Source: Hydrogenophaga sp. (GTDB taxonomy: Bacteria; Pseudomonadota; Gammaproteobacteria; Burkholderiales; Burkholderiaceae_C). From it: a stretch of 64,000 nucleotides of DNA. Positions 11,107 through 22,494 of this stretch are shown piece by piece. Both the position numbers and the translations under genes were made by a program. The stretch's first letter is position 1. Every line of letters begins with the position of its first letter. The stretch is taken from contig NZ_JAABRQ010000014.1 of assembly GCF_011390835.1 (NCBI RefSeq), positions 40,300 to 104,299 of the forward strand, given 5' to 3'. The notes beneath the pieces are model-generated. The model saw only the letters and a list, made by a program, of their open reading frames with translations. It made no database searches and was not told the origin of the DNA.

Positions 11107-12210
11107 ATGGGCCTTCTGAAATGGAAACTGGTCCGCGAGATCAACCGCATCAGGCAACAGCTGCGCGGCATCCCTGAGTTTTTCAGTGAGCCGGCTCAAC
11201 GAAGGCAGCACGATGCGCAGCGCTCGGTGTTGCTGGAGCCCCAGCACGGCGATGTGGCGAAGAGAAAGAAGATTGCCCTGTTGCTTGTGTACCAACCCCA
11301 AGGGGTAGCAGACTCCACGCGGTGGACCTGCGAACACCTGGTGGCCAAAGGCTACTCGCCGCTCATCATCAGCAACGCCCCACTTTCTGCAGCTGACCGT
11401 CAAATGCTCGCGCCCTGGGTCTGGCGCATGGCCGAACGTCCCAATTTTGGCTATGACTTTGGTGGCTACCGAGACGGCATCTGGCTTCTACAGCAGTGGC
11501 AGATCGCCCCCGAGACACTGATCGTGCTCAACGACAGCATATGGTTTCCATTGACTGGCAACGAAACGCTCATCGATTGCATGGAAGGCAGTTCAGCAGA
11601 CTTTGTCGGGGCGCTGCAGCTCGATCCTCTTCGCCAGGTTGAGGGTATCCCACGTAAAAAGCGCCCCTTCTTCGGATCTTTTTTCTTGATGTTCAAGCGC
11701 AATGCCTGGGAGCACTCGGCTTTCCGGATGTTCTGGAGTGGATACGAGAACACCAGCAACAAATACAAGACCATCCGACGGGGAGAGCGGGGTCTATCGC
11801 ATGCGTTGATGGACGCTGGCGTTTCATACGAGGCCATTTACACGCGATCGGGACTGGATGCCTACCTTGGCCGACAATCCAACCATGCTTTGGTGCGGGT
11901 CTTGCAACAGTTAGTGACGATTGATGAGCGCCTGGAGACCCAGATCGCCGATGCGGTCATTCAGTTCGATTCCTCGCCAGAGTGGCGCAATAGAGCACTG
12001 GAACTCGCCATGGCCGCCACGGAAAAACAGAATATCCTCGCTACGGCGCCCATCGCCTCGCTCAGCGTCTTTGCTGTGCCATATCTCAAGAAATCCCGTG
12101 ACTGGAACAACCTTAAGGCTTTGTACAAGGTGCGGGATGCCATGCTGGAAGGCAGCCTGCCGATCGCTCACGCATCCATCATGAATGACTTGAATGCGCT
12201 GCTGGACTGA
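11107..12210 (+). CDS. rhamnan synthesis F (RgpF)-like protein
   Basis: IALLLVYQPQGVADSTRWTCEHLVAKGYSPLIISNAPL...RPNFGYDFGGYRDGI...LIVLNDSIWFPL. Confidence 0.8.
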   Translation: MGLLKWKLVREINRIRQQLRGIPEFFSEPAQRRQHDAQRSVLLEPQHGDVAKRKKIALLLVYQPQGVADSTRWTCEHLVAKGYSPLIISNAPLSAADRQMLAPWVWRMAERPNFGYDFGGYRDGIWLLQQWQIAPETLIVLNDSIWFPLTGNETLIDCMEGSSADFVGALQLDPLRQVEGIPRKKRPFFGSFFLMFKRNAWEHSAFRMFWSGYENTSNKYKTIRRGERGLSHALMDAGVSYEAIYTRSGLDAYLGRQSNHALVRVLQQLVTIDERLETQIADAVIQFDSSPEWRNRALELAMAATEKQNILATAPIASLSVFAVPYLKKSRDWNNLKALYKVRDAMLEGSLPIAHASIMNDLNALLD

Positions 12211-12372: not shown

Positions 12373-13641
12373 ATGCTGTCCTCTGCATCTAACCCCAGCG
12401 CCTGGCCTCAGTGGCGAAACTTCACCGATCAGTGGTGTGGTTGGGCCGTGGTGGCCATGGTCTTTGCGGCGCCAATTTCTCGGTCACTCTTCATCGTGAC
12501 GGGCTTGCTGTTTGCGCTCGGCTGGATGGTACAAGGCCAATTCCAGACGAAGGCGGCGCTCTTGGCCAAGCAGCCAGTCACAGCACCTTTGCTGCTTCTT
12601 GCTGGCATAGTTGTTTGCTGGTCTGTCTTCAGTCCTGCGCCATGGGACGCCATTTTGACCAGCCTGAAGGTCTACTCCAAGTTACTGTTGGTTCTGATGA
12701 TTCTGTTCACATTGACTGAGGAACGCTGGCGAAACCGTGCGTGGTGGGCATTTGGAATCTCGATGAGCATCGTGGTGGCGTCGACCTATGCCAATGTGCT
12801 GCTTGATCTGCCATGGTCGAAGACACAAAACCAAGGGCTGGGTCAGGATCACAGTGTGTTCATTGAACATGTGTCACAAAGCGTGATGACCGCTGTGGCT
12901 GTCGCTTGGATACTCCAACATGCCACCACCTGCAAAACCTGGGCTGGCCGTTTTGCTTGGGGTAGCGCCGCCGTCTTGGCGTTTTGCAGCGTGCTGTTCC
13001 TGCTTGCAGGTCGCTCCGGTCTGGTGGCCATGGCTCTGGTCACAGTGGTGTTCATTGCCTTGGCCACACCCAAGTCTAAGCGTCTGCCAGTGACCCTGGC
13101 CGCTGGTCTGATCGGCCTTGCCGCCATGGTTTCCAGCCCCTTGATTAAAGACCGTATCCTTCTCGGATACCACGAGGTGATCAACTACCAGCCCTTTGAA
13201 TTGACTTCACTGGGTGCACGCATCGATATGTGGCGCTTTGCCCTGGATCGAACACTGGACCAGCCCTTGTTGGGCAGCGGCATCGGCACCTACCACCAAC
13301 AGGCAGCGAAGCACTTTGGGCACTGCACCTGGGTTTGCGACCATCCGCACAACCAGTACCTCTTCTTCGGTATGGAACTTGGCTTGCCTGGTTTGCTGGC
13401 GTTCGTTTGGCTGCTGTGGCGCATCGGTGCGGTCGCACACGCATCGCCCTTCCCCGAACGAGCAACGCTCTTCGCTTTCTTGCTGATTCTTGTGGTGGAC
13501 AGCCTGATCAATGTGCCGTTTTGGTGGCGCGGACAGAGCTATTTCACCTACTCAATGCTCGGCCTTTTGCTCGCCAGCAATTCGCTGGAAAAGTCGACCG
13601 ACAAGGGGCAAAGGCTCAAGGCTTGTGAGCCACCAGCTTGA
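12373..13641 (+). CDS. O-antigen ligase family protein (Wzy_C domain)
   Basis: Multi-TM; LTSLGARIDMWRFALDRTLDQPLLGSGIGTYHQQAAKHFGHCTWVCDHPHNQYLFFGMELGLPGLLAFVWLL. Confidence 0.9.
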   Translation: MLSSASNPSAWPQWRNFTDQWCGWAVVAMVFAAPISRSLFIVTGLLFALGWMVQGQFQTKAALLAKQPVTAPLLLLAGIVVCWSVFSPAPWDAILTSLKVYSKLLLVLMILFTLTEERWRNRAWWAFGISMSIVVASTYANVLLDLPWSKTQNQGLGQDHSVFIEHVSQSVMTAVAVAWILQHATTCKTWAGRFAWGSAAVLAFCSVLFLLAGRSGLVAMALVTVVFIALATPKSKRLPVTLAAGLIGLAAMVSSPLIKDRILLGYHEVINYQPFELTSLGARIDMWRFALDRTLDQPLLGSGIGTYHQQAAKHFGHCTWVCDHPHNQYLFFGMELGLPGLLAFVWLLWRIGAVAHASPFPERATLFAFLLILVVDSLINVPFWWRGQSYFTYSMLGLLLASNSLEKSTDKGQRLKACEPPA

Positions 13642-14819: not shown

Positions 14820-15977
14820 TCAGGCATCGGCAAACACCTTTTGCAGCGTCCGGTCCCAGAAGGTGGCATCCGAAAGCACCGCGGCAAACTTATGCGCAGC
14901 GTCACCCGCACCGAAAGAAGAATCCAATTCGAACCTGACTTTCCACCGATCAATCAGGAAACGATCAATGATCGAGTGCTCATCGGCGCGACAACCGACC
15001 ACCGACGGAGATTGGGCACGATTGGTCTGCCGCGTGCCCACATCCAAACTCGGTAGCCCGAGAAACGGCGCCTCCCGTACACCAGCACTGCTGTTCCCGA
15101 CCATTACAGCAGCGTGTCGCATCAGCTCAGAGAAATAGGCGAATCGCATCGACGGTATCTGTCGAAACCGTTCCCTTGGCAGCTCGTCAATTACCGCAAA
15201 AATATCCTCCGTACCAGGGTCGTTGTTGGGCGAGATGACAATAAAGTTGCGTCCACTGGCCTCGAGACGATCGAATAGGGCGCGAGCCTGGGCTCCCATG
15301 GTGGCGACCTCGGAGGTCACCGGATGGAAGATCACGATGCCGTAATCATCAAATGGGATTTCGTAGCGCGCCTTGACCTCCTCGATGGTCACGCCAGATG
15401 GTTGGGCGTGGGTATCGAGTTCGGGTGAGCCGATGTTGTACACGCTGTCGGCGGACTCGCCCAGCGCCAGTACGCGAGCGCGCGCCGCCTCGGAGCTCAC
15501 GAAATGCGTGGCGCACAGCTTGGTGTTGCAGTGGCGGATGCTCTCGTCAATGGTGCCCGACACCTCCCCTCCCTCGATGTGGGCCGAAGGAATGTACTTC
15601 ATGGCGCAGACGATGGACGCTGCCAGTGCCTCGACACGGTCGCCGTGGATCACCACCAGGTCGGGCCGGTGTTCGTGCACGAAGTCGGAGAACCCGAGCA
15701 GCGTCTTGGACAGAATGAACTCCTGCGCGTCGCCCTCGCGCTGGTTCACGAACTCGAAGAACTCGGCACCAGGAAAACGCTTCACTTCCAACCGGGTTTC
15801 GCCGTAGCGTCGCATCATGTGCATCCCAGTGATGAAGAAGCTGATGGCGAAACCCGCCGATGCTGCAGCGGTGGCCAGAGGTTCGAGCTTGCCGAAGTCG
15901 GCTCGCGTGCCGGTGACGAACAGCAGCCGCTTGCCGGTGACGCGCTCCTTGTTGCTCTCGCCTTGCACTTCAGGCAT
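14820..15977 (-). CDS. neuC: UDP-N-acetylglucosamine 2-epimerase (hydrolyzing), NeuC/LegG-like
   Basis: LLFVTGTRADFGKLEPLATAA...VVIHGDRVEALAASIVCAMKYIPSAHIEGGEVSGTIDESIRHCNTKLCATHF. Confidence 0.88.
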   Translation of the reverse strand: MPEVQGESNKERVTGKRLLFVTGTRADFGKLEPLATAAASAGFAISFFITGMHMMRRYGETRLEVKRFPGAEFFEFVNQREGDAQEFILSKTLLGFSDFVHEHRPDLVVIHGDRVEALAASIVCAMKYIPSAHIEGGEVSGTIDESIRHCNTKLCATHFVSSEAARARVLALGESADSVYNIGSPELDTHAQPSGVTIEEVKARYEIPFDDYGIVIFHPVTSEVATMGAQARALFDRLEASGRNFIVISPNNDPGTEDIFAVIDELPRERFRQIPSMRFAYFSELMRHAAVMVGNSSAGVREAPFLGLPSLDVGTRQTNRAQSPSVVGCRADEHSIIDRFLIDRWKVRFELDSSFGAGDAAHKFAAVLSDATFWDRTLQKVFADA

Positions 15978-17022
15978 TCGCCAGCGGCGTCACGCCGTCC
16001 AGATCGCTCCACAGCAACTGCTGGTTGCGCTTGACCGCGCGGGTCAGGCGCGCGCCCACCAGCCGGTCGAAATGTTGCACCGAAATCTCGCCCGAGCCGG
16101 GACGGCGCGCCCAGATATCGGTGGCGCCAACCACATGACCGGCGGGCAGATCCTTGTCGGCGACCATGGAGCCACGTGCGAAGCGGTAAACGTCTTCTTC
16201 GGGCCCGGTGCGCTGCTTGGGGTTGTGCAGCGCGGTGTGGATTTCGCGCGACCGGTCGATCAGGAACTTGAGTTCGGCGGGGTCCATGGAGCAGGAGATG
16301 TCCGGCCCCTTGCGGTAGCGCGTGTCGGTGAAATGGCGCTCCAGAATGCAGGCGCCCAGCGCCACCGAGGCCAGCGCCATCGACGGGCCAATGCTGTGGT
16401 CGGAGAAACCGATCACAGCGAGCGGGAAGGCTGCCCGCAGCTCGTTAATGCCTTGCAGGCTCACGATCTCGGGCGGCGAAGGGTAGAGATTGGTGCACTC
16501 CAGCAGCGCGTATTCGACACCCGCTTCGTCCAGCGCCTGCACCGAAGGCCGCATAGTCTCCACCGTCTGCATGCCGGTACTCATGATGATGGGCTTGCCA
16601 AATCCGGCGATGTGGCGGATCAGCGGCAGGTGGTTGCATTCGCCCGAACCGATCTTGTAGCCGGCCACGCCAATGTCATTCAGAAAATCGGCGGCAGCGC
16701 GTGAAAAAGGTGTGGAGATATAGATCATGCCGAGCGACTCGGCGTGCTTCTTGAGCGCGATCTCGTCGTCCTTGGACAGGGCGCAGCGCTCCATCACCTC
16801 CCAAATGGACACGTCCGCATTGGGCGGAAAGATCTGCTTGGCCTCGTCGGTCATTTCGTCGTCGACGAAATGCGTCTGGTGCTTGACCATTTCGCAGCCA
16901 GCGCTGTGCGCCGCACTGACCATGCCCTTGGCCACGTCCAGGCTACCGCCGTGGTTGATGCCGATCTCGGCGATCACCAGCGGCGGGTGCTGAGGACCAA
17001 TTTCTCGGTGAGCGATTTTCAT
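15970..17022 (-). CDS. neuB: N-acetylneuraminate/legionaminate synthase family protein (NeuB/LegI-like) with C-terminal SAF domain
   Basis: PPLVIAEIGINHGGSLDVAKGMVSAAHSAGCEMVKHQTHFVDDEM...LLECTNLYPSPPEIVSL...IGFSDHSIGPSMALASVALGACILERHFT. Confidence 0.9.
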   Translation of the reverse strand: MKIAHREIGPQHPPLVIAEIGINHGGSLDVAKGMVSAAHSAGCEMVKHQTHFVDDEMTDEAKQIFPPNADVSIWEVMERCALSKDDEIALKKHAESLGMIYISTPFSRAAADFLNDIGVAGYKIGSGECNHLPLIRHIAGFGKPIIMSTGMQTVETMRPSVQALDEAGVEYALLECTNLYPSPPEIVSLQGINELRAAFPLAVIGFSDHSIGPSMALASVALGACILERHFTDTRYRKGPDISCSMDPAELKFLIDRSREIHTALHNPKQRTGPEEDVYRFARGSMVADKDLPAGHVVGATDIWARRPGSGEISVQHFDRLVGARLTRAVKRNQQLLWSDLDGVTPLANA

Positions 17023-17069
17023 GGAAGCGTCCTAGGGAAAGAAATTTTCAGATCGACGTGTCTTCGTCC

Positions 17070-17155
17070 AGCGCACGCCGCAGAACCGGCTCCGCCGGGC
17101 TGCTGGCGTGGCCCCCCCATCGAGGGGAAGGCGCGAAGCGACGCAGAGGGGCATC
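17070..17155. repeat. mosaic intergenic palindromic repeat, copy A
   Basis: cgcacgccgcagaaccggctccgccgggctgctggcgtggcccccccatcgaggggaaggcgcgaagcgacgcagagggg. Confidence 0.6.
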
Positions 17156-17184
17156 TCAGGTACACGGCGTAGGGGTAGTCATCG

Positions 17185-17988
17185 CTACACAGCGGTCCAG
17201 CCGCCCTCGACAAAAAACTGCTGCCCCGTCGAGTACGCCGAAGCATCGGACACCAAGTAGATCATCATGCCCACCATGTCCTCTGGCTTGGCCATGCGGC
17301 CCAGCGGGGTGCGCGCGACGTAGCGGCGAACAAACTCTGGGTCGTGGTTGTTTTGCACTCCACCAGGCACCAGCGTGTTGACCCGGATGCCTTTCTCTCC
17401 CCAGTAGGTGGCGAGCCAGCGCGTGAGGCCGTGCACGCCGGCCTTGGCCGCCGCGTAGCTGGGCAGGGAATTGAATTTCATGCCTTCGTATATACGGTGG
17501 TCGGGTCCGACCACGCCATAGGTGCTCGACACGTTGACCAGGCTACCGCCTCCACCCTGGAGCATGGCCTTGCCGCCTTCGCGGGCCACCAGATAGACAC
17601 CGGTGAGGTTGACGCGGATCGCCTGCTCCCACACCGCCAGGGTGGAGTCTTCAAACGACGTGAACACAGCGCCCTGGCGCATCAGGTGTTCGCCAGTGGC
17701 CGCCGCGTTGTTGAGCACCGCATCAACACGTCCGAATTTCTTCAGCACGGTCTGGAACAGCTCCACCACATCGGCCTCCACGCCCACGTCGCAGACGATG
17801 CCCCACGCGCCTGGGCCTTGAGGCGACTTGACCGCCCGGGCCTTGGCCACCGGATCGGCGGCGGCCAGATCGGCCATCACCACCTGGGCGCCATGTTCGG
17901 CCAGCCCCTGGCAATAGGCCGAGCCCAGCAGACCAGTACCACCGGTCACCACCACCACCTTGCCGGTCAGATCAAATCGTTGTGTCAT
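17185..17988 (-). CDS. SDR family oxidoreductase (PtmA-like in context)
   Basis: KVVVVTGGTGLLGSAYCQGLAEHGAQVVMAD...LVNVSSTYGVVGPDHRIYEGMKFNSLPSYAAAKAGVHGLTRWLATYWG. Confidence 0.88.
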   Translation of the reverse strand: MTQRFDLTGKVVVVTGGTGLLGSAYCQGLAEHGAQVVMADLAAADPVAKARAVKSPQGPGAWGIVCDVGVEADVVELFQTVLKKFGRVDAVLNNAAATGEHLMRQGAVFTSFEDSTLAVWEQAIRVNLTGVYLVAREGGKAMLQGGGGSLVNVSSTYGVVGPDHRIYEGMKFNSLPSYAAAKAGVHGLTRWLATYWGEKGIRVNTLVPGGVQNNHDPEFVRRYVARTPLGRMAKPEDMVGMMIYLVSDASAYSTGQQFFVEGGWTAV

Positions 17989-18008
17989 GTCGTGTCCTGA
18001 GTTGGGTT

Positions 18009-18719
18009 TCAGGTGGGCAGGCCAAGGCGCTTGCGCATCAGGTACTCCACCAGCTCAAAGTCGAATTCGCTGTCGATATCCAGGCTCTTGGCCGAACCGA
18101 TGTCGTAACCCTGCGTGCGGCCCGAGAGCAAGCCGGTGCCGCGCCGCAGGTAGTCGGGCGAGAGCACATAGATGGAGGCCACATGCTCCACCACCTTGGG
18201 CGCGTCCTGCCGCCGCACGATGGGCTTGGGTAGTTGCTTGCAGATGCGAAGGCTGCCGCCTTCGTCCACCTCCAGCATGTTGAAGTAAGGATTCTTGCGC
18301 GCCTCGCAGACGGTGAAGACGGCGTCCACATCGGCGGTTTGAAACTGCGCAATGGCCCTAGAAATGTCGGCCACCTCGCGCAGCGGTGAGGTGCAATCCA
18401 GGTCCACAAAGAGGTCAATCGGGTCGCCAGCAAAGTGAGCGTCGGTGGCGGCCAGCGCGTGCTGCCACACCTCCCACTTGCCCGCGGTGTCGTTGGCGAG
18501 CTCGGCGGGGCGCATGAAAGGCACGTGAGCTCCGGCCTGGCGCGACACCTCGGCAATCGCTTCGCTGTCGGTGGACACCACCACGCGCTTGATTTCCGGG
18601 CAGGCCAGTGCTTGCTCGATGCTCCAGGCGATCAGGGGTTTGCCCAGCAAGGGGCGGAAGTTTTTGCCGGCAACGCCTTTGGAGCCGCCTCGCGCACCGA
18701 TGAAGCAGGTGATGTTCAT
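18009..18719 (-). CDS. CMP-nonulosonate (acylneuraminate) cytidylyltransferase
   Basis: MNITCFIGARGGSKGVAGKNFRPLLGKPLIAWSIEQAL...VVVSTDSEAIAEVSRQAGAHVPFMRPAELA. Confidence 0.9.
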   Translation of the reverse strand: MNITCFIGARGGSKGVAGKNFRPLLGKPLIAWSIEQALACPEIKRVVVSTDSEAIAEVSRQAGAHVPFMRPAELANDTAGKWEVWQHALAATDAHFAGDPIDLFVDLDCTSPLREVADISRAIAQFQTADVDAVFTVCEARKNPYFNMLEVDEGGSLRICKQLPKPIVRRQDAPKVVEHVASIYVLSPDYLRRGTGLLSGRTQGYDIGSAKSLDIDSEFDFELVEYLMRKRLGLPT

Positions 18720-18732
18720 GTCAGTCGATCTT

Positions 18733-19749
18733 TCAAGGGGTCACATCTTCGGGGCGAACACAGCGCCGCTCTCGGTCGGACTGGTGAGCCGCGAGCGCGA
18801 TGCGCAGCACCGACACCGCGTCGGCCAACGAGGACGACGCAGGTAAGCTCGGCTTTTCAATGCGCTGCAGAAAATGCGCCATGTGGTCGCGAAACAAGGT
18901 GTTGCGCTCAAAACCTTCAGGCACGCGGTGCACCACCTCGGGCGCTGCGCCGGCGCGGGTGAGCGACACCGTACCGGCCGCGTAATCCCAGGTCAGCACG
19001 CCGTGGCGACCCACCAGCTCCATCTCACGCCCATAGCCTGGACGCACATAGTCCAGATGCACCTGAGCCAGCACGCCAGAGGCCATGCGCAAGCCGATCT
19101 GGGCGATGCCTTCTGTCTCGATCTCCAGCGCCGGCACGACGCGGGTCATGGCACTCGCATCGACTACCGGGCCGACCAGCCAGTGAACCAGATCGAGCTC
19201 GTGCACCAGATCAAAAATCACACCGCCACCCTGTGCGCGAAAGGCGCCATAGCCCTGGCGGTGGTCGGTACCAGGCCGCCAGTCGGGTAGCCACTGGCCT
19301 ACCGCCGCGCGCACATGCATCAGCTCACCCAAGGCACCGCTGGCCAGGTGCGTCTGCATCCAGCGCAGATTGGGGTGATGCCGCAGCATGAAGCCAGCTT
19401 CCACCACTGTGCCCCGCTCGGCCACGGCATCCACCAGATGCTGAACCTGAGCCAGCGAAGCGGCCAGCGGCTTTTCGATGAAGAGGTGTTTGCCGTGGCG
19501 AGCGGCCTGCAACGCAACGGGCAGGTGCTGATCGGTGCGGTTGGCGACGACGACAGCCTGCACGTCCGAGGCCAGCGCCTGGTTCAGGTCGAGCACGCGT
19601 TGCACGCGTGCATCGTCAAACACCGATCCGCTCTGCGCTGCACCCGAGGCCAGCCGGTAGCTGTACGCTCGGACCTGCACCCCCAAAGCCAGCAGATTGG
19701 CGATGTGTCGCTTGCCGATGGAGCCGGTGCCGACAACCAGAATGTTCAT
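18733..19749 (-). CDS. Gfo/Idh/MocA family oxidoreductase (PtmF-like in context)
   Basis: MNILVVGTGSIGKRHIANLLALGVQVRAYS...LFIEKPLAASLAQVQHLVDAV...GGGVIFDLVHELDLVHWLVG. Confidence 0.88.
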   Translation of the reverse strand: MNILVVGTGSIGKRHIANLLALGVQVRAYSYRLASGAAQSGSVFDDARVQRVLDLNQALASDVQAVVVANRTDQHLPVALQAARHGKHLFIEKPLAASLAQVQHLVDAVAERGTVVEAGFMLRHHPNLRWMQTHLASGALGELMHVRAAVGQWLPDWRPGTDHRQGYGAFRAQGGGVIFDLVHELDLVHWLVGPVVDASAMTRVVPALEIETEGIAQIGLRMASGVLAQVHLDYVRPGYGREMELVGRHGVLTWDYAAGTVSLTRAGAAPEVVHRVPEGFERNTLFRDHMAHFLQRIEKPSLPASSSLADAVSVLRIALAAHQSDRERRCVRPEDVTP

Positions 19750-19814
19750 GCAGGGGAGGTGATTTCAGAGCGAGGATCGGTGGGACAACGGCGGCGTCGA
19801 ACCCAGGGCCTTAC

Positions 19815-19820
19815 TATACT
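19815..19820 (+). promoter_or_regulatory. candidate -10 element (TATACT) upstream of the GT30 pair
   Basis: TATACT in the 91-bp divergent spacer between the Gfo/Idh gene (-) and the GT30 pair (+). Confidence 0.35.
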
Positions 19821-19840
19821 GGCCCGAGCCCCCCGCCCGC

Positions 19841-21247
19841 ATGCCAGACACCCCGCACGATCCACGCCCGCCCTTGCGGCGATTTCCCCCCAGCCGGCGC
19901 ATGGCGGGGCTCATTGCGCTCTACCAGCTGCTGTGGCATTCGCTGCTGCCCGTGGTCTTTCTGTTCCTCTGGCGCCGCGGGCGGCGCGAGCCGCTCTACC
20001 GGCAATTCTGGGGCGAGCGGTTTGGCAACACCCACACCCCGCTGCACCGTCCGCTGTGGGTCCACTCGGCGTCCATGGGCGAGCTGCGAGGCGCTGCCCC
20101 GCTGGTGCGCGCGCTGCTAGCCGAAGGCCTGTCCATCGTGATCACCACACTTACGCCGGCGGGCCGCACGGCGGCACAGCAGCTGTTCGACGAACCCATT
20201 GCACAAGGCCGGCTGGCCGTGGCGTATCTGCCGCTGGAGCTGGGCTGGGCGGTGCGCCGCTTCATCCGCCAGGTGAATCCGCGCGCGGCGGTCATGACCG
20301 AGATCGACACCTGGCCGGTGCTGCTCGCCACGCTGCGCACCCAAGGTGTGCCCTTGGCCATGGCCAATGCGCAGTACCCGAAAGAAAGCTTCATCCGAGA
20401 CAGGAAGCGCTGGTGGGGGTTTCGCGCCGCGCTATTCCAGGCCTACGAGCTGGTGCTGTGCAAGTCGGACACCCATGCCCAGAGGTTTCGTCAGCTGGGT
20501 TGTGAGCGTGTGGTGATCGCCGGGGAAACGCGCTTTGATCTGCCTGCCTCGCCACAGCAACTCCATGCTGCCAGCGAACTCTCGCGACAGTGGGGGCTGG
20601 CCACCCACACGCCAAGTGGGCGACCCGTCGTGTGTTTTGCCAGTGTGGTGGTGGGCGAGGACGCCACTTTTGTCAGCACCATGCAGACCATCCGCCAAGC
20701 ACTGGCCAAGCAGTCAGCGACTCCGCCGCTGTTCGTCTGCGTGCCGCGCAGCCCACAGCGTTTTGACGAGAGCGAGCGGTTGCTGGCAGAAGCGGGCTTG
20801 CGTGTGGTTCGGCGCAGCGCCTGTCTCGATGCAGCGTTTCAGCCAGACGAGAACCTGAAGATGGCGGATGTCGATGTCTTGCTCGGCGACTCGCTGGGCG
20901 AGATGTACTTTTACCTCGCGCTGTCGCAGGTGGTGGTGGTCGGCGGGTCCTTTGTGGACACCGGCGCACACAACGTGATCGAACCGCTGGCGCTCAAGAA
21001 GCCGGTGATGGTGGGGCCCAGCATCTGGGGCATTGAGTATCCTGGCGCTGAAGCATTGGCTGCTGGGGTGTTGCAGCAGCACGCCGACGCGAACCGCCTG
21101 GCGCAGGCGCTGTTGTCGCTACTGACTTCACCGCAGGCCTATGCACAGGCGACGGCCGGTGCAGCGGCATTTTTTGCCGAACACGGCGGCGCCACCGACA
21201 AGCACATGGCCACGTTGATGCCCTGGCTGCAGGAGCGCGCACCATGA
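19841..21247 (+). CDS. GT30 (KdtA/WaaA, Kdo-transferase-like) glycosyltransferase, divergent copy 1
   Basis: LIALYQLLWHSLLPVVFLFLWRRGRREPLYRQFWGERFG...LWVHSASMGELRGAAPLVRALLAEGLSIVITTLTPAGR; membrane anchor and SMGE motif; unusual NAQYPKESF. Confidence 0.82.
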   Translation: MPDTPHDPRPPLRRFPPSRRMAGLIALYQLLWHSLLPVVFLFLWRRGRREPLYRQFWGERFGNTHTPLHRPLWVHSASMGELRGAAPLVRALLAEGLSIVITTLTPAGRTAAQQLFDEPIAQGRLAVAYLPLELGWAVRRFIRQVNPRAAVMTEIDTWPVLLATLRTQGVPLAMANAQYPKESFIRDRKRWWGFRAALFQAYELVLCKSDTHAQRFRQLGCERVVIAGETRFDLPASPQQLHAASELSRQWGLATHTPSGRPVVCFASVVVGEDATFVSTMQTIRQALAKQSATPPLFVCVPRSPQRFDESERLLAEAGLRVVRRSACLDAAFQPDENLKMADVDVLLGDSLGEMYFYLALSQVVVVGGSFVDTGAHNVIEPLALKKPVMVGPSIWGIEYPGAEALAAGVLQQHADANRLAQALLSLLTSPQAYAQATAGAAAFFAEHGGATDKHMATLMPWLQERAP

Positions 21248-22494
21248 GCCGTCGACCCCTGGCCTTGCGCGCCTATCTGCGCCTGGCACGGGCACTGGCG
21301 CCGGTCTGGCACCGGGGCCTGCAGCACCGCCTATTGCGCGGCAAGGAAACAGCGGCCAGCATCCAGCAAAAACTGGCGCTGCAGATGCCTCCACGCCCCG
21401 ACGGTCCGCTGGTCTGGGGCCATGCGGTGGGCGTGGGCGAGTCCATGGCACTCGCCGGCCTGTTCCACCGTCTCGGTATAGAGCGCCCCGATCTCCATTT
21501 TCTCATCACCACCACCGCGCGCACCTCGGGCGACGCCTTGCAACGGCAGGGGCTTCCGCCGCGCTGTCAGCACCAGTTCGCCCCGGTGGACACGCCCGAG
21601 GCCACGGCGCGCTTCATGGCGCACTGGCACCCCCGCCTTGCGCTGTGGTGCGAGATGGACCTATGGCCCGCGCTGATTGCAGCCGCTGACGATGCCGGAG
21701 TGCCTCGCGTGCTGGTGAATGCACGCTTGTCAGAGAAGTCGCTGGCCAAACGGCGCTGGGGCCGGTGGGTTTACCAGGCGCTGCTGCCCGGGTTCACCGA
21801 CGTGTTTGTGCAAAACAGCGAATCGGCGCGTGGCCTGCAAGCACTCGGGGCTCAGCCCGAGTCCATCACCGTGAGCGGCACCATCAAGACGATGTCGCCA
21901 CCGCTTACCTGCAACGCGGCCGAGCTGGCGCGCTGGCAACGTGCGTTGGGCCAGCGTCCGCGGTGGCTACTCGCCTCCAGCCACCCAGGCGAAGAAGCAC
22001 TGGCGCTGGCGGCCCACGCCCAGCTGCGCGAGCTTGCACCCGACGCCCTGCTCATCATCGTCCCGCGCGTGCCTATCCGCGGCACCGAGGTGGCTGCCCT
22101 GTGTCCGCCCGGCTCGCCGCAACGCAGCCAGGGCGCCAGCCTGGCAAACGAAACGCCGGTGTACATCGCCGACACCATCGGCGAACTCGGCCTGTGGTAT
22201 CGGCTGGCGCCTGTGGCGCTGGTCGGCGGATCGCTGGCGGCAGTCGGCGGCCACAACCCCCACGAACCTCTGGCGCTGGGCTGCGCCGTGTTGCACGGCC
22301 CCCAGGTGTGGAACTTCAGCGAGAGCTACACCGCGCTGGACGAACAAGGCCTGAGCCAACGCGTGGGCGATGTCGCCGAGATCGCGAAAGCCGTGCAAGC
22401 CGCTTGGCTCTCACCGCGACAGCGCGAGGATAGACGCCCGAAAGACGAGCAGGCAGAGGCATTGCTGACTCGCTTGTTGTCGCATCTCTCTTAG
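21244..22494 (+). CDS. GT30 (KdtA/WaaA-like) glycosyltransferase, divergent copy 2
   Basis: LLRGKETAASIQQKLALQMPPRPDGPLVWGHAVGVGESMALAGLFHRL...LALWCEMDLWPALIAAADDAGVPRVLVNARLSEKSLAKRRWG...VALVGGSLAAVGGHNPHEPLALG; 4-bp overlap with copy 1. Confidence 0.82.
   Translation: MSRRPLALRAYLRLARALAPVWHRGLQHRLLRGKETAASIQQKLALQMPPRPDGPLVWGHAVGVGESMALAGLFHRLGIERPDLHFLITTTARTSGDALQRQGLPPRCQHQFAPVDTPEATARFMAHWHPRLALWCEMDLWPALIAAADDAGVPRVLVNARLSEKSLAKRRWGRWVYQALLPGFTDVFVQNSESARGLQALGAQPESITVSGTIKTMSPPLTCNAAELARWQRALGQRPRWLLASSHPGEEALALAAHAQLRELAPDALLIIVPRVPIRGTEVAALCPPGSPQRSQGASLANETPVYIADTIGELGLWYRLAPVALVGGSLAAVGGHNPHEPLALGCAVLHGPQVWNFSESYTALDEQGLSQRVGDVAEIAKAVQAAWLSPRQREDRRPKDEQAEALLTRLLSHLS

Follow-up and report, generated by a model that had tools for sequence, protein, structure and literature searches.

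What do two adjacent glycosyltransferases of family GT30 transfer when they are read divergently from a set of nonulosonic acid genes? The question is raised by a 64,000-nucleotide stretch of Hydrogenophaga sp. DNA (contig NZ_JAABRQ010000014.1; hereafter the window), in which genes resembling neuC, neuB and a cytidine monophosphate (CMP)-sugar synthetase gene face two waaA/kdtA-like genes, here called GT30a and GT30b. GT30 is known as a dedicated family of transferases for 3-deoxy-D-manno-oct-2-ulosonic acid (Kdo). The obligate pairing of the two GT30 genes with sialic-acid-like sugar genes in Hydrogenophaga and Limnohabitans suggests that one of the enzymes attaches that sugar deep in the lipopolysaccharide (LPS) core. 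On balance, we lean towards an explanation in which one GT30 has come to use a CMP-nonulosonic (sialic-type) acid instead of CMP-Kdo as its donor. The resulting inner core would be lipid A-Kdo-nonulosonate, joining Kdo-Kdo and Kdo-phosphate as a third solution found in nature, and the genes for it would form a module exchanged between species. In the open-access literature, the only literature searched, we found no description of a GT30 enzyme with a nonulosonate donor.

Gene content and layout of the locus

The features concerned are as follows (positions within the window).

14820..15977, minus strand: NeuC-like hydrolysing 2-epimerase of uridine diphosphate N-acetylglucosamine (UDP-GlcNAc) (TIGR03568, 350 bits, cut-off 236)
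15970..17022, minus strand: NeuB-like nonulosonic acid synthase of the sialic-acid-synthase type (PF03102, 229 bits)
17185..17988, minus strand: short-chain dehydrogenase/reductase (SDR) oxidoreductase (PF13561); only in a window-type subset of loci (L034, L048, L167)
18009..18719, minus strand: CMP-nonulosonate synthetase-like cytidylyltransferase (PF02348; PseF-like, below cut-off)
18733..19749, minus strand: Gfo/Idh/MocA oxidoreductase (PF01408/PF22725); only in a window-type subset (L034, L039, L048, L167)
19750..19840, no strand: divergent spacer of 91 bp separating the operon for sugar synthesis from that of the GT30 genes, with TATACT at 19815-19820
19841..21247, plus strand: GT30a, WaaA-like transferase of betaproteobacterial descent with altered motifs; proposed nonulosonate transferase (PF04413, 151 bits)
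21244..22494, plus strand: GT30b, KdtA of alphaproteobacterial descent; proposed Kdo transferase (PF04413, 158 bits)

An earlier note, made from the sequence alone, had read five minus-strand sugar genes (NeuC-, NeuB-, SDR-, CMP-transferase- and Gfo/Idh-like) and two overlapping plus-strand KdtA-like genes here. The former gave the expected Pfam or NCBIfam matches, and both of the latter exceed the cut-off of PF04413, the GT30 N-terminal domain (23.9 bits), and overlap by 4 bp in the ATGA at 21244-21247. The 91-bp spacer and its TATACT were likewise located, the hexamer being a resemblance to consensus only. The motifs that the note had listed are in the translations (SMGE and NAQYPKESF in GT30a; GVGE, CEMDLWP and RGKET..PPRPDGPLVW in GT30b), and its N-terminal membrane anchor of GT30a corresponds to a long helix predicted at residues 19-49.

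The pair lies between TolC and PGM, a site at which most sampled relatives keep a single waaA. The gene arrangement is conserved in two genera, Hydrogenophaga and Limnohabitans, and is therefore far above chance.

Two alternative states of one site

The window genome is 99.3% complete, and GT30a and GT30b are its only GT30 genes. A hidden canonical waaA, for which the earlier note had advised a search, is ruled out, since no further GT30 was found in this genome or beside the pair in any relative searched. Of the 20 genomes that carry the closely related loci L033-L052, all but one have this pair and no third GT30; in the exception a contig end truncates the locus. Nearly all of the 151 genomes sampled from the family carry exactly one GT30; two each, both scoring weakly against the family profile, are found in the window genome and in the one other sampled member of its genus. 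Two genomes of this sample, G017 and G056 (completeness at least 90%), gave no GT30 match at all.

GT30a, NeuB, Kdo kinase and rpoB served as queries in a survey of the genus that covered 67 genomes. In 39 of them a Kdo transferase and a Kdo kinase share one open frame, an apparent WaaA-KdkA fusion (for example L105:8017-10575 and L104:7548-10301, with 37 further genomes of the genus); the GT30a-GT30b pair is present in 22, an unfused WaaA with neither kinase nor pair in two (G583 and G601), and no GT30 match in four, all of them incomplete. No genome has both pair and fusion, and both states occupy the same TolC-PGM site. That the module takes the place of a fused Kdo kinase is the strongest clue to its role, and one that the sequence available to the earlier note could not show. 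The kinase part of two fusion proteins was identified by NF002475 (244 and 229 bits, cut-off 142), and no pair genome gave a Kdo kinase match above 30 bits. We found no description of a WaaA-KdkA fusion in the literature searched. The NCBIfam Kdo-transferase equivalog does not separate these enzymes, as GT30a, GT30b and the two fusions tested all score below its cut-off.

Pair loci are also carried by Limnohabitans. A class-wide search returned no GT30a-like gene above 39% identity in other lineages, outside the genus. Two further loci deserve mention in their own right. One is L175 (G145:C3:79230-79757), a second and very divergent GT30-like gene at a distance of about 1 kb from the genome's single kdsA. 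The other is L169 (G583:C14), whose genome lacks Kdo kinase and has WaaA in unfused form; here a separate cluster of NeuB (50%), NeuC (44%) and CMP-transferase (36%) genes stands apart from the GT30 gene.

Linkage of the nonulosonate genes to the pair

NeuB of the window clade (83-96% identical) is present in 21 of the 22 pair genomes. In the remaining one, G572 (L048), the contig ends inside the SDR gene. In genomes without the pair NeuB identity is at most 50%, and window-type NeuB occurs in none. The co-occurrence that the earlier note had proposed to examine thus has a single exception, the truncated contig, and it persists through several switches of state on the rpoB tree. This tree covers 49 genomes, rpoB alone giving a weak species tree; the pair label changes eight times on the best tree and 7-8 times in bootstraps, and well-supported branches force at least four changes. 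In all four independent contrasts on such branches the presence of NeuB matches that of the pair and is opposite to that of Kdo kinase, the kinase being equal between partners in a few random pairings of contrasts. This repeated linked switching is strong in pattern and modest in statistics.

Every complete (non-truncated) pair locus contains GT30a, GT30b, NeuC, NeuB and a cytidylyltransferase, and nothing else is common to all. The cytidylyltransferase is of one of two types, 31-37% alike, and NeuC is 72-89% identical among the other pair loci that extend far enough. At L173 both parts of the module persist although they lie about 10 kb apart, the GT30 pair in one place and the neu genes in the other. 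Locus L033, considered as a pair locus without neu genes, was rejected as such, the neu genes lying about 10 kb away. Across 14 pair genomes the mean protein distance is 0.10 for NeuB and 0.14 for the housekeeping protein PGM; distances of GT30a and GT30b correlate with rho 0.93, and each correlates with those of NeuC at 0.87-0.88. Conservation of NeuB and the GT30s at this level points to a core function, not to an O-antigen gene.

Variable across pair loci are the SDR and Gfo/Idh genes, a 311-amino-acid gene without Pfam match, and the ligase-like and RgpF-like genes, which in the window are:

11107..12210, plus strand: RgpF-like protein (PF05045); frequent, not universal in pair loci (not found in L049, L167, L168, L171)
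12373..13641, plus strand: O-antigen ligase-like protein (Wzy_C, PF04932); in both kinds of locus, pair and KdkA

Proteins of about 300 amino acids with a WQCVM(V/I)CWGxKYP-like start are encoded in three pair loci (L037:4847-5782, L043:350-1228 and L046:340-1233); those of L037 and L046 have no Pfam match.

Descent, motifs and predicted fold

In the GT30 tree, another check named in the earlier note, each copy has its own position, on a long branch and apart from the other. GT30a groups with the betaproteobacterial WaaA of the family (support 95/83), and GT30b with alphaproteobacterial KdtA (100/100), a likeness that the note had suspected from the N-terminus of GT30b. A recent tandem duplication of one GT30 is rejected, since forcing the copies together gives p = 0.0007 in the approximately unbiased test.

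Both enzymes retain the catalytic glutamate of the SxGE motif and a second glutamate (E81/E154 in GT30a, E66/E137 in GT30b), fixed in 26 of 26 sequences each. GT30a has 14 fixed derived replacements at columns near-invariant in reference GT30s, among them NARLS to NAQYP, LKFD to TRFD, RHP to RSP, GGHN to GAHN and NF to GIE. GT30b has seven such changes, and three of these are shared, in part or in full, with ordinary alphaproteobacterial KdtA; its fixed changes S63G and T92A lie near the catalytic glutamate. Of the near-invariant Kdo-transferase residues (NAR, LK, RHP, GGHN, NF), GT30a has lost all five and GT30b only the histidine, keeping NAR, K, GGHN and NF.

The note had also advised structure prediction. 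For the predicted models (predicted local distance difference test, pLDDT, 84.8 and 85.9) the top Foldseek match of both enzymes is Aquifex WaaA (2xci), and Acinetobacter structure 4bfc is matched with TMt 0.82 (GT30a) and 0.78 (GT30b), in keeping with the GT-B fold of WaaA and its CMP-Kdo-binding C-terminal domain. Several GT30a changes lie in the C-terminal half, that is, in the domain titled CMP-Kdo binding domain in 4bfc. From the positions of these motif changes we infer that GT30a is the copy with the changed donor.

Predicted sugar and Kdo supply

The earlier note had called the cassette legionaminate-type, a label that the gene content does not bear out. The conserved core of NeuC, NeuB and CMP-transferase is what the N-acetylneuraminic acid (Neu5Ac) route needs. 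No LegB dehydratase (4,6-dehydratase), LegC aminotransferase or LegH acetyltransferase was found among the family-scanned genes around the cassette, the search being confined to these. NeuB scores 342 bits on NnaB (cut-off 400) and 223 on PseI, below both equivalog cut-offs; among proteins of solved structure it is closest to SiaC sialic acid synthases (376 bits). In the same comparison the cytidylyltransferase, whose family-level score is below cut-off, is closest to CMP-Neu5Ac synthetases, and NeuC to hydrolysing 2-epimerases of the bacillosamine and GlcNAc kinds. The minimal gene set is Neu5Ac-like, and the predicted product is a nonulosonic acid, probably Neu5Ac-like; legionaminic acid is not indicated. 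In loci of the window type the SDR and Gfo/Idh enzymes may modify it.

A second NeuB-type gene, 36% identical, lies elsewhere in the window genome (L177:942-3543, contig 32 of G000) beside an open reading frame with a PseG-like start, and probably belongs to a pseudaminate pathway. With this gene present, the likeness to PseG being taken from the start of the frame only, the window NeuB is unlikely to be the flagellin pseudaminate gene.

All pair genomes searched have kdsA, and most have kdsB over the cut-off, the exceptions being draft assemblies; Kdo is therefore still made, and its complete replacement is rejected. The earlier note had proposed that the pair may move a nonulosonic acid, either replacing Kdo or joining it; with kdsA and kdsB retained, the second option fits better than the first. 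No genome of either state passes the cut-off of heptosyltransferase I (TIGR02193) among the 67 of the genus, which suggests a heptose-free or unusual core in the genus and makes heptose uninformative as a feature discriminating pair from KdkA state.

Proposed function and alternatives

Substitution of the inner-core Kdo is needed for viability in species where this was tested. We regard it as probable that at least one of GT30a and GT30b uses a nonulosonic acid. NeuC, NeuB and the cytidylyltransferase would make the CMP-activated sugar; GT30b would add Kdo; GT30a, a re-specified betaproteobacterial WaaA, would then transfer the nonulosonic acid, most likely onto the Kdo placed by GT30b. There it would fill the place of the phosphate that sister species attach by Kdo kinase, or of the second Kdo that a bifunctional WaaA attaches elsewhere. 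The donor of GT30a, the attachment point and the order of the two steps are what we infer here, and for the specific assignment, an inner-core LPS module with GT30b for Kdo and GT30a for the nonulosonic acid, we judge the case to be evenly poised. A nonulosonic acid transferred by a GT30 as the second acidic group is the simplest account of why pair and Kdo kinase are mutually exclusive.

Several points weigh against this proposal. The main caveat is that pair and neu genes are neighbours, so that block exchange of the whole LPS locus could carry unrelated neu genes along with the GT30s. The independent contrasts on well-supported branches number only four, for which a sign test gives p = 0.125 and cannot reach 0.05. 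Both copies have lost the histidine of VPRH, so that motifs separate GT30a from GT30b imperfectly, and the class-wide search found no second, unrelated lineage with a GT30a-like gene. Finally, Kdo kinase could have become dispensable simply by addition of a second Kdo.

The last point leads to the strongest alternative, which we consider rather unlikely: both GT30s are Kdo transferases, for the first and the second Kdo, the latter replacing the Kdo phosphate, and the neu sugar serves the outer core or O-antigen and is inherited with the locus. Kdo synthesis is indeed kept, both copies retain the catalytic glutamate and many donor motifs, and O-antigen ligase-like genes are present in the locus. 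Bordetella pertussis is viable only if its Kdo bears a phosphate or a second Kdo, and the latter can replace the former (PMC10743493). A pair making Kdo-Kdo accounts equally well for the loss of the kinase, but not for the fixed presence of the neu genes, which no complete pair locus lacks, in contrast to the ligase, RgpF-like and other neighbours, which differ between loci or are missing. Moreover, NeuB is conserved like housekeeping genes, its window clade is absent wherever the pair is absent, and GT30a has lost near-invariant residues of the donor-binding domain.

We think it improbable that the roles are the reverse of those proposed, with GT30a as the native Kdo transferase and GT30b, having arrived with the neu genes, transferring the nonulosonic acid. 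The relatives of GT30b do fall outside the host's own group, and its fixed S63G and T92A lie near the catalytic glutamate; however, its derived changes are half as many as those of GT30a, three are shared to some extent with ordinary alphaproteobacterial KdtA, and it keeps NAR, K, GGHN and NF. Least plausible is transfer of the nonulosonic acid by another gene of the locus with no involvement of the pair, either the RgpF-like gene (in many pair loci and in none of the KdkA-type loci checked) or the 311-amino-acid gene, since neither is found in every pair locus and no family at the locus other than GT30 is known to use CMP-ulosonates.

Comparison with known systems

Should a GT30 enzyme indeed take a nine-carbon sugar of the sialic type, it would no longer hold that the inner core has either Kdo or phosphate as its second acidic group, and the two states would offer a natural paired enzyme set for learning how CMP-ulosonate transferases choose their donors. 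As both states occur in one genus, the donor question is directly testable.

The closest relatives are WaaA/KdtA themselves (CAZy GT30; Aquifex aeolicus 2xci/2xcu), which share with GT30a and GT30b the fold, the N-terminal anchor, the SxGE catalytic glutamate and the PR, D, E and N motifs; the window differs in its two adjacent, separately derived copies, the fixed motif losses of GT30a and the obligate linkage to nonulosonate synthesis. Monofunctional WaaA with KdkA, as in Haemophilus influenzae and B. pertussis, similarly gives one Kdo a second acidic group needed for viability, whereas the window has no kinase, and the site is taken up by a second GT30 together with genes of a CMP-nonulosonate pathway. 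Sister Hydrogenophaga species have WaaA and KdkA in one open frame.

An inner-core ulosonic acid other than Kdo is known from the Kdo8N core of Shewanella (PMC4052302). Kdo8N, however, is an eight-carbon Kdo derivative, and the sugar proposed here would be a nine-carbon NeuB product. Acinetobacter baumannii KdoT is a second enzyme beside WaaA that adds an inner-core ulosonic acid, being a separate enzyme for the third Kdo; it is annotated as ELM1-like, is not described as a GT30 in that report, and uses CMP-Kdo (PMC12856342). Bacterial sialyltransferases (GT38/42/52/80, e.g., Lst) share CMP-nonulosonate donors with the proposed enzyme, but belong to other GT families and act on terminal sugars. 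Among transferases of other families, Lst accepts both Kdo and Neu5Ac donors, including CMP-Kdo (PMC8092323), and Maf is reported likewise to accept both Kdo and Neu5Ac (PMC11339370).

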